A stretch of DNA of 64,000 nucleotides, from the NCBI RefSeq assembly GCF_038594945.1, contig NZ_JBCFYD010000001.1, positions 744,001 to 808,000 on the forward strand, written 5' to 3'. Source of the stretch: Fodinibius sp. Rm-B-1B1-1. GTDB lineage: Bacteria; Bacteroidota; Rhodothermia; Balneolales; Balneolaceae. Position 1 is the first letter of the stretch; every line of letters begins with the position of its first letter. A program made the position numbers and the translations under genes. Under the pieces are notes generated by a model. The model did no database searches and was not told the origin of the DNA. It saw nothing but the letters and a program-made list of their open reading frames with translations. Below, piece after piece: positions 16,214-60,464 of this stretch.

Positions 16214-16999
16214 ATGAAACGATACGGTTCAACTTTACCGATACTAATAATAGCAATTTTAATCGGTTTTGTTTTCCAATCGTGCCTGGACCATACGGGA
16301 CCTAAGACTGAAGTCCCTGATCCACAATACTCCCATACCCAAAACCCGGGTACTTCGGCCAACGACTTCCTGGCTGATACCAGTTTCAAACATTTAGTGG
16401 TAGAAGTAGATTACATGCCCGGCTACGAGCCAAAGACCGAAGCTATTGACAGCCTGGAGGCATTTTTTGAGCAACGGCTGTACAAGAATTCCATCACTAT
16501 AAAAGAACCAACTGAGATTGAGTCACGAAATCAGGACTCATACAGTGCCGATGATGTTCGAAATATTGAGTCCGAAGAACGTTCTACCTTTTCACAAGGA
16601 GATACACTGGCCGCCTACTTTATGATTGTAGATGGCAAATACAGCGAGCGAGAGCTAATGGGGATTGCCTACTTTAATACATCTAATGCATTTTTTGGTC
16701 CGGCTTATGATGAAGCCAGTAGTGGCGTGGGTTCTATTTCTCGGGAACGTGTAGAAGCAATTTCATTCCGGCATGAATTTGGACATCTCTTTGGGCTCGT
16801 AGACATCCCCAACTCGGGTACCGAAATGCAGGAACCGCACCGAGATCAAGAACATGGCAATCACTGTGATAATGATCAATGCCTAATGTATTATGCCACG
16901 CAAACCACCGACCTAATTGGCAATACAGTGGGGGATGAAGGAATTACACCACTTGATGATAATTGCATTGCTGATTTACAGGGAAATGGCGGGAAATAA
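16214..16999 (+). CDS. Archaemetzincin-like lipoprotein metalloprotease, copy 1
   Basis: This 261-residue protein has a signal peptide with a lipobox cysteine at C24 (FQSC), so it should be a lipid-anchored envelope protein. The catalytic region has HEFGH at 187-191 with a glycine at 194. It is followed by H217-C218, then C223-L-M225, and a last cysteine at C251. The HC-x4-C-x-M arrangement is that of archaemetzincins, but here about 22 residues separate it from HEFGHxxG, more than in classical members. NCBI-style names for relatives are 'membrane metalloprotease'. A paralogue follows 67 bases downstream with the same architecture. Substrate and biological role are unknown. Confidence 0.8.
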   Translation: MKRYGSTLPILIIAILIGFVFQSCLDHTGPKTEVPDPQYSHTQNPGTSANDFLADTSFKHLVVEVDYMPGYEPKTEAIDSLEAFFEQRLYKNSITIKEPTEIESRNQDSYSADDVRNIESEERSTFSQGDTLAAYFMIVDGKYSERELMGIAYFNTSNAFFGPAYDEASSGVGSISRERVEAISFRHEFGHLFGLVDIPNSGTEMQEPHRDQEHGNHCDNDQCLMYYATQTTDLIGNTVGDEGITPLDDNCIADLQGNGGK

Positions 17000-17066
17000 A
17001 AAACAGCATTGAGAGTTTTTAAAACTATTATCTAAATTTCTTAAATACTGATCGCACGTTATTATT

Positions 17067-17861
17067 ATGATTTCTATAAAACGGTTTTCCATTCTATTAG
17101 CTTTTTGTTCGCTATCCTTACTAATTGTTAGTTGTTCCGATTCAACCACGGGGCCAGATGATTCTTCAACAACTAAACTCGACAGTAAACAAAAGCCTGG
17201 AAATTCAGCCGAGCTATTTTTACAAGACGACCAATACACCAGCCTACAGGTAGAGATTGACTATATGCCAGGTCACGAACCAACCCAAGATGGTATAGAC
17301 AGCCTCAAAACATTCCTCGTGCAGCGGCTTAACAAGCAAAACATAAGTTTTAGGTCACCCACCCAAATCGATTCCCGTAACCAAAGCAGCTATACCGCAG
17401 CTGACATCCGATCAATCGAAGAGAATGAACGTGATCATTACACAGAAAGTGATGGTAGTACGCTACAGGTTTACTTTCTTGTTGTTGATGCAAAATATAA
17501 TGACGGTGACGACGGTGGGTCTAATGTACTCGGCATTGCCTATTGGAATACATCTGTTGCTTTCTTTGGCGAAACAATTGAAGAGGTGAGTTCTGGCATT
17601 GGAGCACCGCCTGAAGAAAAGATTGAAGGTACAGTCTTTCGCCACGAATTTGGACATAATATGGGATTAACAGGAAATGGCACCCCCCATCCATCAGGGC
17701 AATCGAATCACCAAAACGGAGATGCCCACTGTTCCGTTGATGGATGTCTGATGGAGCCAGCTGTCGAAACGGGCAATTTCTTTACGAACACCTTTGATGG
17801 TGATATTCCTAACTTAGATCCGCTTTGTATTGAAGATCTGCAGGCAAACGGCGGGAAGTAA
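17067..17861 (+). CDS. Archaemetzincin-like lipoprotein metalloprotease, copy 2
   Basis: This is a tandem paralogue of the preceding gene, at 264 residues. The lipobox cysteine is C23 (IVSC). The catalytic motif HEFGH is at 193-197 with a glycine at 200; H221-C222, C227, M229 and C254 complete the archaemetzincin-type pattern. Both copies share DYMPGHEP/DYMPGYEP, the block SRNQ-S-Y-A-D, FRHEFGH and the terminal DLQxNGGK. Copy 2 replaces some of the linker between HEFGH and HC with His- and Gln-rich text, so the two copies have diverged most at the substrate side of the active site. They are likely cotranscribed. Confidence 0.8.
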   Translation: MISIKRFSILLAFCSLSLLIVSCSDSTTGPDDSSTTKLDSKQKPGNSAELFLQDDQYTSLQVEIDYMPGHEPTQDGIDSLKTFLVQRLNKQNISFRSPTQIDSRNQSSYTAADIRSIEENERDHYTESDGSTLQVYFLVVDAKYNDGDDGGSNVLGIAYWNTSVAFFGETIEEVSSGIGAPPEEKIEGTVFRHEFGHNMGLTGNGTPHPSGQSNHQNGDAHCSVDGCLMEPAVETGNFFTNTFDGDIPNLDPLCIEDLQANGGK

Positions 17862-18484: not shown

Positions 18485-20101
18485 TCAGCTTTGCTTAAAC
18501 TTGAATAGGTTTTCAGCACCAACTTTCTCCTCAGCCTGACTGAGCGCATATCCACTATCAAACAGCACAATAGGATTGCCTTCCATATCCTTGGTCACAT
18601 GCGTTGAGTAACTACTTTCCAGCTTATCAATGACCTCCTGATCATCCCCCAACCAGCGCGCTGCGTGATAGGATACCGAATTCATGTGGAGTTCGGTATT
18701 GTACTCCGTTTCCATACGATGCTCTACCACATCAAACTGTAGGGCACCAACCGTTCCCAACAGCAATTCATTTCCCACACCATTGGGGACCTCAAAAACG
18801 TGTACCACCCCTTCTTCGGCCAGCTGCTTAAGTCCCTCACGCAGTTGTTTTCGCTTAAAGGGATCTTTAGTGGACACCTTCATAAAGTGCTCCGGCGTAA
18901 AAAGCGGAATTACGTCAAACTTTACAGGATCGTCGCTGTAGATCGTTGTTCCAATGCGAAATGATCCGGGATTAAACAACGACACCACATCACCAGGATA
19001 AGCCTCTTCCAAAATATTACGCTCATCTCCCATCAGCGTGTGAGGCGTCGACATTTTTACCTTGTTCCCTGTATTGCTTTCGGTAACTTGAATACCGCGC
19101 TCAAACTTTCCTGATGTAATACGAATAAAAGCTGCGCAGTCGCGGTGATCGGGATTCATATTGGCCTGCATCTTAAAGACAAAACCCGAAAATCCGCGAT
19201 CTAAATCCCGGGGCTCATCATCTTCATCAGCATAGGGCTGCGGCGGATTGGCCAACTCCGAGAAATAATCCAGAAACACATCCAGCCCAAAGTTATTGAG
19301 CGCTGAACCAAAAAATACCGGCGTCACCTTCCCATTGGCAAAGGCTTCTTCATCCATCATCTCCATCATGCCCTCGGTCAGCATCACTTCTTCACAAAAC
19401 TTCTCTTTATCAAAATCGGAGAGATGCGCTTCTTCAATACCTTCCTCTAAATCGTAAATTTCGGTTTCAGCTTTCTTGGCACCATGCTCTTCTTTTTTCT
19501 GTAGATGCAGTTTCTTACCAATCAGATCATAAATACCCTGGAAATCTCGTCCATAGCCCAGCGGCCAGGATGCGGGTATTGGTTCAATACCTAACTGGTT
19601 CTCAATATTGCTGATCACCTCCAGCGGCTCCAAACCCGGGCGGTCGCACTTGTTTACAAACGTAATAATGGGGATCTCGCGCATTTTACAGACTTCAAAA
19701 AGTTTCTCTGTCTGTTCCTCAACACCTTTGGCAACATCAATCACCATCAGGGCGGTATCGGCAGCAACCAGCGTCCGAAGCGTATCCTCAGAAAAGTCTT
19801 TGTGGCCGGGCGTATCCAGCAAGTTAAACTTGATGTTATCTTTCTCAAATCGCAGCACGGATGACGTTACGGAAATTCCGCGGTCCTTTTCGATGGCCAT
19901 CCAATCAGAAGCTGCATAACGGTTGGCTTTCCGCTGACGAATTGATCCAGCCTCATGAATAGCCCCTCCATACAAAAGCAGCTTCTCGGTCAGCGTTGTT
20001 TTACCCGCATCGGGGTGTGATATAATAGCAAAGGTACGCCGGCGCTTGGCCTCCTCTATAATTTCCTGTTGCTGTTTCGTTTTAGTATCAGTGTTCGACA
20101 T
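18485..20101 (-). CDS. prfC: Peptide chain release factor 3
   Basis: RF3 is a GTPase that removes RF1 or RF2 from the ribosome after peptide release. The 538-residue protein has the G1 motif SHPDAGKTT (28-36), G3 DTPGHKDF and G4 NKCDRPG, and the RF3-specific text RQRKANRYAASDWM. The C-terminal half carries the expected domain II and III blocks (GALQFDVVEHRMETEY). Its length matches E. coli RF3. The gene is transcribed alone, with the DUF72 gene downstream of a separate gap. Confidence 0.97.
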   Translation of the reverse strand: MSNTDTKTKQQQEIIEEAKRRRTFAIISHPDAGKTTLTEKLLLYGGAIHEAGSIRQRKANRYAASDWMAIEKDRGISVTSSVLRFEKDNIKFNLLDTPGHKDFSEDTLRTLVAADTALMVIDVAKGVEEQTEKLFEVCKMREIPIITFVNKCDRPGLEPLEVISNIENQLGIEPIPASWPLGYGRDFQGIYDLIGKKLHLQKKEEHGAKKAETEIYDLEEGIEEAHLSDFDKEKFCEEVMLTEGMMEMMDEEAFANGKVTPVFFGSALNNFGLDVFLDYFSELANPPQPYADEDDEPRDLDRGFSGFVFKMQANMNPDHRDCAAFIRITSGKFERGIQVTESNTGNKVKMSTPHTLMGDERNILEEAYPGDVVSLFNPGSFRIGTTIYSDDPVKFDVIPLFTPEHFMKVSTKDPFKRKQLREGLKQLAEEGVVHVFEVPNGVGNELLLGTVGALQFDVVEHRMETEYNTELHMNSVSYHAARWLGDDQEVIDKLESSYSTHVTKDMEGNPIVLFDSGYALSQAEEKVGAENLFKFKQS

Positions 20102-54209: not shown

Positions 54210-56675
54210 CTACCTAAAACTACACTGCATAAACCCGAGCTCATCAGATCCAATGGGCGACCCCGGTGGTGGAGTCAACGGCTCGGTGGGCATAAACATT
54301 TCTCCCTCGTCTTTAAACTGCTGCAACGTACGATATCCATATAAAAGAGATGCGATGCGCTGTTCTTTTTCTGCTCGATTTTCGGCCTCTTCACGCATCC
54401 ACTCACGCAACGCTTCAAGCTTAAAATTGGTAACGGCACGTACTTGTGATGACGCCTGATCATCCGCAGCTAAATTCATCATCTGGTATAAAACAACGTG
54501 ATTAACCGTATTTTGAACAGCTCCTTTATACCCATCAGCAACCGGCTGCTTCCAAGTCCGATCAATTAAGGTATCCAACATATCACCAAGGCCCAGGTTA
54601 TCTGCATTGTGCGCTTCTGACTGTACTAACCGGGCTGCCCGTTCGGTATTGAACAATAATTCTGCGGACATTGCTGCCGCTGTTTCCGCTGCACTCAACG
54701 GATCAAACGTAGGATCGGTATGACTGTTAAACAATTCACGGGAATCATAATAGCCTATGGGACGTGGTGGTATTAGTTCCACAATGCGTTCGGGCATGGT
54801 CAGCTGTTCCGCAGACAGCGTTTTGAGCATAGCATCCAAAGCAGCCCGCTGGGTAGAATCCGGTACTGGTTCAGGACCGACCTGACTATCTCCACGAAGG
54901 TTGTAACTGTAATTTTGTCCACCAATTAATTTAACCGTACCGTCAATTTGGTAACGGTGAAATAAGTAGATAGGCACCAAGGCATCTTCCAGCTTAGCCA
55001 TTGGGGTACCTTGTGGTATATTTGATTCCGAAAAGTTCTGCAAGGCAATATCCCGCACATCCATAATATGATGCAGCTGATCGACCGCATCTTCGCCGTT
55101 ATCCCAGAGGTGAGCTTTAGGATGAGCTCCTCCTGCGGGACGTGCATCCGAATCTGAGATAAAAAGCAACCCATCATCTATCGCACCTTCAAGCACATTA
55201 TTTAGCGCGGCCTCTTTACTTGGCAGACCCGAAACATCCTTATACCCATATTCAACGGCCACCTTATCCCATTCGCCAATGCCCGTATCATAGGCATCAG
55301 ACAGGTCCAGTGTACTATCTTGAGTAATATTCACTTTGGGAGCCGGATAATCCATAACCGAAGCACGATTGTTGGTGCTGGCCGCAAAATTGTGTGCGAG
55401 ACCAATAGTGTGACCAACTTCGTGTGCAGAAAGCTGGCGAATTCGTGCCAGCGCCATCTCCAGCATGGGATCATATTTCTCAAAACTTGCTCCCTCTTTA
55501 TATGGGGATAACAATCCCTCAGCAATTAAATAATCCTGTCGCACGCGCAGCGATCCCAGTAGCACGTGACCCTTGATGATTTCTCCCGTCCGCGGATCCA
55601 CCACTGACGAACCGTACGACCAGCCACGCGTTGACCGGTGCACCCAGTTAATCATATTATAGCGCACGTCCATGGGGTGAGCACTATCTGGCAACACCTC
55701 TACGCGAAACGCATCCTGATAACCTGCCGCCTCAAAAGCCTCATTCCACCAACGGGCACCATCCAGCAGTGCACCACGAATAGGCTCAGGCGTTCCCGGG
55801 TCTAAATAATAAACAATAGGCTCAACAGGCTCACTCATCTCCGCAGCTGGATTTTTCTTCTTAAGCCGATGCTTGGTGATAAATCGTTTGGTGAGCGATT
55901 CTCCAACCGGCGTGCTGTAATCCTGGTAGCTGATGCCAAAATATCCCGCACGAGGATCAAACGTTCGGGGCTTAAAATCATCATCCGGCAGCTCCACAAA
56001 TGAGTGGTGTTGACGAACAGTGATTGCATCAGATGTAGGGGTTACCGAGCGAACTTGTCCGCCGGGATTACTGCCCGTAAACGTAAGCGTAGCTTCGAAT
56101 TCTGTATTTTTGGGGAAGTTCATCGTTGCCTCGCGATACAAAGCCGAGCGACTGTTATCTACACTAAAGTTTCCTTCGTTACTGCGTTGTAACCGCTCAC
56201 TGACGCCGTGGGCATCCCGCATTAGAAAATCGGTAGCATCAACAAGCACGCGATCTCCTTCCTGTGCCGCAACCTCAAATCCCCACAACACTGATTGCGC
56301 AAAAGCATCACGCACCGACTCTTGTTCTTTGGGATTATCGGTGATGGCCCGATACGAATAGTTTGGCTGTACCATCAGGACCTTGGGGCCACGACGCTCA
56401 AATTTTACGATTCGATCGTCGCCCAGCTGATTACGATCGAGTCCAATATCATTCGAGCCAACTCCTGCGGCAAGCGAATTAACATACAGAAACTCCGTAT
56501 TAAACTTGTCGATCTCCAGCCAAATCTTCCCACTGGAATCATCCCAGTAATAGGTGAAAAATCCCTCCTCCTTTTCAAGTCCTTGCGTTTCCTTGCTAAT
56601 GGAAGGAAGATCTTGGGAAAAACCGGTTGCTGTTATAAATAGAAGTGTAAATAAGAAAACAGAAAGTCGCTTCAT
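54210..56675 (-). CDS. Large secreted zinc metalloprotease (met-zincin, DUF5117/DUF4953-like)
   Basis: An 821-residue exported protein with a signal peptide ending near residue 20 (ATGFSQ). The zinc site is HEVGHTIGLAH at 418-428, followed by a methionine-turn SVMDYP at 439-444, so it is a true met-zincin. The N-terminal part (20-280) matches the DUF5117/5118-type segments that precede such proteases in Bacteroidota. The C-terminal 250 residues are helical. Such enzymes are envelope or secreted proteases with unknown targets. It is a single gene with an MITE-like repeat in its upstream flank. Confidence 0.88.
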   Translation of the reverse strand: MKRLSVFLFTLLFITATGFSQDLPSISKETQGLEKEEGFFTYYWDDSSGKIWLEIDKFNTEFLYVNSLAAGVGSNDIGLDRNQLGDDRIVKFERRGPKVLMVQPNYSYRAITDNPKEQESVRDAFAQSVLWGFEVAAQEGDRVLVDATDFLMRDAHGVSERLQRSNEGNFSVDNSRSALYREATMNFPKNTEFEATLTFTGSNPGGQVRSVTPTSDAITVRQHHSFVELPDDDFKPRTFDPRAGYFGISYQDYSTPVGESLTKRFITKHRLKKKNPAAEMSEPVEPIVYYLDPGTPEPIRGALLDGARWWNEAFEAAGYQDAFRVEVLPDSAHPMDVRYNMINWVHRSTRGWSYGSSVVDPRTGEIIKGHVLLGSLRVRQDYLIAEGLLSPYKEGASFEKYDPMLEMALARIRQLSAHEVGHTIGLAHNFAASTNNRASVMDYPAPKVNITQDSTLDLSDAYDTGIGEWDKVAVEYGYKDVSGLPSKEAALNNVLEGAIDDGLLFISDSDARPAGGAHPKAHLWDNGEDAVDQLHHIMDVRDIALQNFSESNIPQGTPMAKLEDALVPIYLFHRYQIDGTVKLIGGQNYSYNLRGDSQVGPEPVPDSTQRAALDAMLKTLSAEQLTMPERIVELIPPRPIGYYDSRELFNSHTDPTFDPLSAAETAAAMSAELLFNTERAARLVQSEAHNADNLGLGDMLDTLIDRTWKQPVADGYKGAVQNTVNHVVLYQMMNLAADDQASSQVRAVTNFKLEALREWMREEAENRAEKEQRIASLLYGYRTLQQFKDEGEMFMPTEPLTPPPGSPIGSDELGFMQCSFR

Positions 56676-59549: not shown

Positions 59550-60464
59550 TTGTTAAGAATAAGATTACAACGTAGAGGTCGAAAAAAGCGACCTATCCAT
59601 CATATTGTTGTTGCGGATAACCGCAAGCCCAGAGATGGACGCATTATTGAAGATTTAGGTCGTTTTGATAACGTAACACCCAACAACCAGCTTGATCTGG
59701 ACAGAGAACGTGCACTACACTGGTTAAAGCAAGGTGCTCAACCAACTGATACCGTTCGTTCTATTTTCAAGAACCAAGGTATCATGTACGAAATGCACTT
59801 GTACCGTTGGGGCAAGTCGGAAGAAGAAATTGAAGAAGCTCTTGCTGAGTGGCGTGAACGTCGCGAGGAGAAGGAGGAAAAAGTTCCTACGCGCAAAGAA
59901 CGTCAACAGGCACTATTAGAAGCCGAGGAAAAAGAATTCCAGAAGCAGCTTAAAAAGAAAGCTGAAGAGGCTGCCAAAGAAAAAGCTAAGCAGGAAGCTC
60001 TTGCATCTGACGAAGAGGAAGAAGAGGATGCTGATGAAGCTACTGCAGAGGCAGATGAGGCCGAGGCCGCTGATGAAGATGATCAGCAAGAAGCCGAAGC
60101 ACAAGAAGAAACAGCAGACGAAGAAGTAGAGGAAGCTGCTGATGAAGAAACGGAAGAAGTCGAAGCTCAAGAGGAAGAGTCTGGCGACGATTCTGAAGAA
60201 GAGACTGAAGCTCAGGAAGAATATGACGAAACTGAGGAAGAGGTTGAAGCTTCTGATGATGAAGAGGAAGATACGGAAGACGCTGCAGATGAGGATGAAG
60301 AAGAATCAAAAGCAGAAGGACAAGTATCTACCGATATGTTAGCGAAAGAAGCTATTGAACATATCGAGAATACACCTCTTGATGAGCTTGAAGGCTTTGT
60401 CCCTGAAGACGAAGATCGGGTCACCGTTCAACGTGCTTTGGATGACAAGAAAGAGAATAGTTAA
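59550..60464 (+). CDS. rpsP: Ribosomal protein S16 with very long acidic C-terminal extension
   Basis: The first ~85 residues are S16: MLRIRLQRRGRKKRPIHHIV, then ADNRKPRDGRIIEDLGRFDN and VRSIFKNQGIMYEMHLYRWG. S16 is a 30S assembly protein. The protein is 304 residues, far longer than the usual 80-180. From about residue 150 to 255 it is almost only Glu, Asp and Ala (EEEEEDADEATAEADEAEAA and similar). A C-terminal segment after residue 260 (MLAKEAIEHIENTP) is ordered. The start is TTG at 59550, supported by the AAGGA at 59535-59539 and the correct N-terminus. Upstream is a terminator; downstream are rimM, trmD and rplS. Confidence 0.92.
   Translation: MLRIRLQRRGRKKRPIHHIVVADNRKPRDGRIIEDLGRFDNVTPNNQLDLDRERALHWLKQGAQPTDTVRSIFKNQGIMYEMHLYRWGKSEEEIEEALAEWRERREEKEEKVPTRKERQQALLEAEEKEFQKQLKKKAEEAAKEKAKQEALASDEEEEEDADEATAEADEAEAADEDDQQEAEAQEETADEEVEEAADEETEEVEAQEEESGDDSEEETEAQEEYDETEEEVEASDDEEEDTEDAADEDEEESKAEGQVSTDMLAKEAIEHIENTPLDELEGFVPEDEDRVTVQRALDDKKENS

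Follow-up and report, generated by a model that had tools for sequence, protein, structure and literature searches.

Zinc proteases and related proteins

The archaemetzincins (family M54) carry the fingerprint HEXXHXXGXXHCX4CXMX17CXXC, in which, as described in PMC3427221, the catalytic zinc takes its third ligand from the His that precedes the Cys, and four Cys form a second site. The same source describes CarG of M. xanthus, an archaemetzincin relative that functions without peptidase activity and for which a change of HE to HQ is also reported. Among proteases that are held at a membrane, leishmanolysin (GP63, M8) of Leishmania has a displaced third ligand: 62 inserted residues separate the metzincin Gly from the third zinc-binding His (PMC11957388). 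The FP0506 elastase of Flavobacterium psychrophilum is a predicted surface lipoprotein metalloprotease of the Flavobacteriaceae, but differs in that its authors class it as a gluzincin (ExxA), without metzincin residues, and it represents another family (PMC6414381).

The DNA analyzed here, referred to as the window, is a stretch of 64,000 nucleotides (contig C1, positions 744001-808000) from the 3.4 Mb genome of a Fodinibius species, in which two genes, P1 and P2, lie head to tail with a gap of 67 bp (Table 1). The best explanation, which can be considered reasonably probable, is that both encode envelope metzincin lipoproteins of an archaemetzincin-like kind that stem from an old duplication, in which H217 would bind the catalytic zinc and three cysteines would form a structural site.

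Table 1. Features of the P1/P2 locus, in window positions
Feature	Position	Strand	Basis
P1, metzincin-like lipoprotein, more conserved copy, 261 aa	16214-16999	+	
P1 lipobox cysteine C24 (FQSC)	16283..16285	+	sequence; alignment column invariant
P1 HEFGHLFG, residues 187-194: two zinc His, catalytic Glu, Gly (roles by homology)	16772..16795	+	
P1 spacer, residues 195-216 (22 residues), contains invariant H209	16796..16861	+	
P1 HCDNDQCLM, residues 217-225, with the proposed third His for zinc, two Cys and the Met of the Met-turn	16862..16888	+	
P1 D248-x2-C251-x2-D254, proposed equivalent of archaemetzincin CxxC	16955..16975	+	
P2, lipoprotein paralogue, less conserved copy, 264 aa	17067-17861	+	
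P2 lipobox cysteine C23 (IVSC)	17133..17135	+	sequence; alignment column invariant
P2 HEFGHNMG, 20-residue spacer, HCSVDGCLM	17643..17753	+	
prfC-like gene (label by eye), conserved neighbour and synteny marker, outside the function	18485..20101	-	

The gene pair and its relatives

Both reading frames are intact as located by an earlier note on this DNA, their products are predicted lipoproteins, and P1 and P2 share 43% identity. The motifs of P1 follow one another in the order C24, H187-E188-F-G-H191-L-F-G194, H217-C218-x4-C223-L-M225 and C251, and P2 has the same pattern; the lipobox, the HEFGHxxG and HC-x4-C-x-M motifs and the late Cys that had been read earlier in the two genes are thus all present in each. 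The earlier note had also regarded the stretch between HEFGHxxG and HC as the most divergent part of the pair, which holds only by half: the stretch is very divergent (5 of 25 columns identical, 20%), but the leader/linker (residues 1-45) also has 20% of its positions identical (9/45), and residues 226-250 come near (7/25, 28%). A search for a third copy in the same genome gave none that was convincing, with one weak match (E 4.4e-4), located in a longer frame and limited to residues 9-59 of the query, and a scan for promoters and terminators was uninformative (11 promoter-like sites for 6.8 expected; two terminator-like sites for 1.9). Elsewhere in the window, an 821-aa ORF (54210-56675) with a signal-like N-terminus and HEVGHTIGLAHN appears by eye to be a further zinc metalloprotease, and a 304-aa ORF (59550-60464) has, also by eye, a start resembling ribosomal protein S16 and a very long acidic C-terminal tail.

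After export through the Sec pathway and cleavage by signal peptidase II, the mature proteins would start with a lipidated Cys (C24 or C23), followed, as the lipobox and the low model confidence after it suggest, by a flexible tether of about 20 residues. The lipoprotein signals previously recognized in P1 and P2 are supported by the lipid Cys column, which is invariant in the alignments, and a strict lipobox pattern is present in 126 of 134 family members, two of the other eight being without an N-terminus. S, D, T, N and G abound at positions +2 to +8 after the lipid Cys; Lys occupies +3 in 38 of these 126 sequences and Asp occupies +4 in 55, and the residues at +3/+4 resemble the Capnocytophaga lipoprotein export signal described in PMC6414381. 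The Lys is absent from both P1 (C-L-D-H) and P2 (C-S-D-S), so that their surface exposure in Fodinibius is only a guess; the safe statement, predicted from sequence, is that both are envelope lipoproteins.

Matches to the family were detected in 59 of the 128 genomes of the same order, and in at least 56 of the 394 genomes of a phylum-wide draw, a count that is a lower bound because at most six candidates were scored per genome. A scan of GTDB genomes confirmed at least 142 relatives, of which the best 80 come from Bacteroidota, Balneolota and one Rhodothermia bacterium, and a tblastn search of a plasmid collection with P1 at E 1e-5 yielded no match. As far as searched, the family would seem to be that of the Bacteroidota/Balneolota group, and weaker or unlisted relatives may occur elsewhere. 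The matches listed by literature searches on membrane metalloproteases of bacteria, Bacteroidetes in particular, and on archaemetzincins include no description of this family, and curated models leave it unnamed, Pfam providing weak reprolysin labels and NCBIfam nothing above cut-off for P1 or P2.

The 134 distinct members considered here were derived from 167 profile matches in loci L002-L152, together with P1 and P2, by collapsing sequences whose last 150 residues are identical. In P1 numbering, H187, G194, H209, C218, C223 and M225 are present in all of them, and H191, H217, C251 and D254 in 133; this invariance, together with the matches in 59 of 128 genomes, indicates that the P1/P2 pattern did not arise by chance. 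The HExxH glutamate, whose loss in orthologues had been a concern of the earlier note, is retained in 131 members, including both P1 and P2, with Q in two and S in one. Residue 248 is D in 122 members, G in eight, E, C or Q in one each, and a gap in one, while position 197, three residues after the Gly, where a contiguous metzincin motif would have His or Asp as its third ligand, is occupied by N (80), D (34), G (17), A (2) or K (1), with Asp in P1, Gly in P2 and His nowhere. The spacer between G194 and H217, which could be measured in 131 of the 134 members, is 19 residues long in 84 of these; it has 22 residues in P1, and 20 in P2 and no other member. Between the Met and the first matched Cys of the late-Cys region lie 21-32 residues (132 of 134 measured), compared with 17 in the archaemetzincin fingerprint.

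Affiliation and architecture of the proposed zinc-binding domain

The HExxH motif, a Gly two residues further on, a downstream Met and the metzincin fold are all found in P1 and P2. As the earlier note had proposed, both structures were modelled; compared by overall fold, the AF2 models (pLDDT 92.1 and 88.8, pTM 0.89 and 0.87 for P1 and P2, respectively) give AmzA of M. kandleri (2x7m) as the top VIA-align match in both cases (P1: Z 13.4, rmsd 3.4, 169 aligned; P2: Z 13.7, rmsd 3.4, 172 aligned), with that of A. fulgidus (4axq) second for both. The first row that is not an archaemetzincin is found at 12.1 for P1 and 12.0 for P2, more than one Z unit below 2x7m, a margin that is modest since venom adamalysins come next at a Z of about 12. 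Foldseek gives a TM-score to target of 0.69 with 2x7m for both proteins and ranks it first for P2 and twelfth for P1, where 11 fragilysin chains precede it by E-value; the query-normalised TM-scores of these chains are 0.40-0.46, versus 0.54 for 2x7m. Leishmanolysin is absent from the fold rows shown, which excludes nothing, and a sequence search of solved structures produced no convincing match, the best metzincin rows having E-values of 0.42 (fragilysin) and 0.53 (a snake metalloproteinase). The first place of 2x7m by Z for both models speaks for resemblance, and is no proof of descent.

With the archaemetzincins (AmzA of M. kandleri, 2x7m, and A. fulgidus, 4axq; M. labreanum, 3lmc), P1 and P2 share the fold, HExxHxxG, the HC-x4-C-x-M motif with its Met-turn (C218, C223 and M225 in all members, H217 in all but one) and a late cysteine motif. 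The fingerprint is nevertheless broken at two places. A contiguous HExxHxxGxxH is absent from the family, with a His at the usual place of the third ligand in 0/134 members; the Gly-to-His distance is 2 in archaemetzincins and 17-27 in the 131 members measured, so that the spacer is indeed longer than in classical members, as noted earlier. The x17-CxxC of the Cys4 site is also absent, being replaced by a single late Cys in the form C-x2-D, mostly with D-x2 ahead of the Cys, and CxxC occurs in a single member of the 134 (L043); P1 and P2 thus have only three of the four zinc-finger cysteines. In addition, P1 and P2 are by prediction exported and lipidated, and fall below the M54 cut-offs. PF07998 (M54) does not match either of them at E up to 10, and of 75 members searched at E up to 1 it matches 3 (lowest E 0.08); NF033823 gives P1 15.9 bits, versus a cut-off of 145, and does not match P2. 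At E up to 1, 62 of the 75 members match the NCBIfam archaemetzincin model (lowest E 1.3e-7), and almost as many match other NCBIfam models (SVAGG 58/75, M6 domain 52/75). A plain archaemetzincin label was therefore rejected, given the broken fingerprint and the missed curated cut-offs. Of the archaemetzincin assignment made in the earlier note, the fold and the HC-x4-C-x-M signature stand, but the full fingerprint and the M54 cut-offs do not: strict M54 membership fails, a relatedness in kind probably holds, and P1 and P2 probably belong to a sister family of archaemetzincin-like proteins whose zinc motif (H187, H191, H217) is interrupted.

Profile comparisons may point in the same direction. 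In hhalign, the profiles of the family and of 25 canonical M54 proteins from its phylum align with a probability of 93.9% and a score of 57.2, the highest of the four metzincin sets tried (M10-like 49.9, M43-like 45.5, Reprolysin_5 35.3), in a comparison where every score leans on HExxH and where the control sets are small and were selected by their motifs (13 M10-like proteins, mixed, 13 M43-like and 26 Reprolysin_5 domains from the phylum). Null controls scored 14.1 with reversed columns and no more than 23.7 in 20 column shuffles. The M54 alignment pairs HC-x4-C-x-M and gaps the spacer. Removal of the spacer columns increases the M54 score from 57.2 to 78.2 (M10 55.7, M43 50.6, Reprolysin_5 34.5), and the cutting of two other blocks of about 19 residues leaves the score with the 25 proteins at 57.0. 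A set of 13 lipoprotein-like M54 proteins is unclean as a test, because from an uncut score of 57.1 the two other-block cuts (72.1 and 70.0) lift it nearly as much as the spacer cut (73.0).

It is of note that the same phylum also holds canonical M54 proteins at 15 loci (L183-L197), all above the M54 cut-off, in 13 proteins of which HExGHxxGxxHCx4CxM is seen by eye. Like P1 and P2, many have lipobox-like N-termini, but they differ in their contiguous motif, intact CxxC and lack of a spacer; they appear to be lipid-anchored true archaemetzincins.

The protease mechanism that we infer for P1 and P2 from their sequences would involve a soluble metzincin zinc-protease domain of the archaemetzincin-like sister family, in which H187 and H191 of HExxH and, beyond the spacer loop, H217 would bind the catalytic zinc, with E188 as the putative general base and M225 as the Met-turn residue, all by homology. 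The spacer with H209 would probably lie beside the cleft and could act as a gate or specificity loop; being invariant, H209 must have some role, be it in a gate, as an extra ligand or in contacts within the loop. By analogy, leishmanolysin, which is also membrane-anchored, offers a precedent for such an interrupted zinc motif with its large insertion between Gly and the third His, unlike P1 and P2 in being a larger eukaryotic enzyme with a GPI anchor and a longer insertion. C218, C223 and C251, with or without an Asp (D248 or D254), would stand in for the archaemetzincin Cys4 zinc finger, in a structural site that may be held by metal or by a disulfide. Other metzincins have two disulfides at similar places (PMC3427221); the three cysteines of the family allow one at most, with one Cys to spare. 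If there is a metal site at all, its fourth ligand is perhaps D254, which is more conserved, or D248. The hhalign alignment with the lipoprotein-like M54 set places C251 opposite the second Cys of CxxC and D248 opposite the first, and in L043 (3782-4663) a Cys at position 248 yields CSHC near the end, recreating the archaemetzincin CxxC.

The earlier note had assigned H217, C218 and C223 to a second metal site, which is probably wrong, since the His before the Cys ligates the catalytic zinc in archaemetzincins and their second site consists of four Cys. An arrangement close to that idea, in which the catalytic zinc has H209 as its third ligand and H217, C218, C223 and C251 form a His-Cys3 structural metal site, is an unlikely alternative to the zinc role of H217. 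Its appeal lies in the occurrence of H209 in all 134 members, one more than H217, and in the slight rise of the M54 score (57.2 to 62.2) when only residues 197-208 are removed, which brings H209 to the classical distance; removing the whole spacer lifts the score far more, however, and the M54 alignment puts H217, not H209, opposite the third ligand. The sole member with a destroyed HExxH, L152 (609-1466, in genome G127), reads HSLGR at the HExxH site and YC at the HC site, and is thus without E188, H191 and H217, yet keeps H209 together with C218, C223, C251 and D254. This loss pattern fits a place for H217 in the catalytic site and for the remaining residues in the scaffold, L152, on a long tree branch, and L043 being single cases.

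A descent from reprolysin- or fragilysin-like metzincins, with the Met-turn cysteines in disulfides, as in adamalysins (PMC3427221), and a convergent likeness to archaemetzincins, seems improbable. The metzincin core is shared with these proteins, adamalysins reach a Z of 11-12, and the Pfam matches, weak as they are, name reprolysins: PF13688 scores 28.6 for a cut-off of 27 with P1 only, PF13582 24.9 for 22.4 with P2 only, and at E up to 1, 56 of 75 members match Reprolysin_5 and 53 match Reprolysin_3. The reprolysin (M12B) motif is HExxHxxGxxHD, which is absent from the family (residue 197 is His in 0/134), and the contiguous HExxHxxGxxH, as seen in the Reprolysin_5 set, comes without an HC doublet. 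That doublet and the natural CxxC of L043 fit archaemetzincins better, and while an extracellular location favours disulfides and fragilysin structures head the Foldseek list of P1, archaemetzincins have the highest Z with both models and the first Foldseek rank with P2. A plain reprolysin label drawn from Pfam was considered as well; Reprolysin_5 gives the lowest profile score of the metzincin families tried.

That P1 and P2 are envelope binding lipoproteins which, like CarG, use a metzincin fold without proteolysis is very unlikely. It draws on a separate tandem pair in another genus, found in genomes G076 (L018:2173-2976) and G077 (L024:3-464), in which the upstream copy has HQxGH instead of HExGH and retains the other ligands. 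Comparison of the two HQ copies, of which that of L024 is partial, at a contig end, gives a dN of 0.36 and a dS of 1.63, which suggests something other than plain decay of the HQ copy. In the assays of PMC3427221, moreover, neither A. fulgidus nor M. kandleri AmzA showed activity; the archaemetzincin of T. kodakarensis, on the other hand, cleaves casein in an EDTA-sensitive manner (PMC4681839), and the catalytic Glu is present in both window copies as in 131 of the 134 members.

Duplication and divergence of the two copies

In a tree of 66 rows, P1 and P2 fall into clades of 15 and 14 rows, each supported at 100/99 and joined at 97/91. Both kinds occur in seven genomes, the P1 kind alone in eight and the P2 kind alone in seven, counts that derive from the de-duplicated tree and exclude lost rows such as G027. 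The search for the pair in related genomes proposed earlier thus recovers it in seven but finds one kind alone in 15 of 22, which rules against an obligate two-gene unit; two copies in one locus were seen in 0 of 80 named loci with flanks of up to 4 kb. A recent tandem duplication was also rejected, on the strength of the two well-supported clades and of the 41-47% identity within the pair in the seven two-copy genomes. P1 and P2 go back to an old duplication, and their locus, which adjoins prfC, often retains a single copy. Among 20 loci compared, chosen to include eight two-copy loci and with gene names assigned by eye, prfC adjoins the locus in 19, and lpd is near it in 14, although some contigs end too early for this to be judged.

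In 20 of 21 genome comparisons it is P1 that is better conserved; P1 is under the stronger constraint and P2 diverges more, and a difference in their substrates is a guess. Rough NG86 rates give a dN of 0.06-0.09 and a dS of 1.9-2.8 for three P1-clade pairs, and a dN of 0.08-0.37 and a dS of 0.7-2.6 for four P2-clade pairs. The window P1 groups with the P1s of genomes G013, G018 and G019, and the window P2 does not group with their P2s; forcing it to do so costs 25 log units (p-AU 0.015), for a constraint group that was named after the trees were seen. Identity to the same three genomes (loci L014, L015 and L016) is 51-53% for P2 and 84-85% for P1. The discordance of P2 may be due to replacement by recombination or to unusually fast change.

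The proposal that these proteins make up a distinct family of envelope-anchored metzincins, in which a zinc motif split by a His loop and a change of the Cys4 site to Cys3-Asp co-evolved, with an HQ partner in one genus, is a tentative one, to which slightly less than an even chance is given. If it is true, the gating of the active site evolved along with export and lipid anchoring, and the partner in which Glu is replaced by Gln may regulate its active neighbour or hold its substrate. Although archaemetzincins occur widely, the proteins crystallised from A. fulgidus and M. kandleri are those reported as inactive in PMC3427221. A predicted extracytoplasmic, lipid-anchored relative with an active-site loop and Glu-less partners would provide an entry to archaemetzincin-like function, and the family a place to ask how the second site and the spacer control archaemetzincin-like enzymes.
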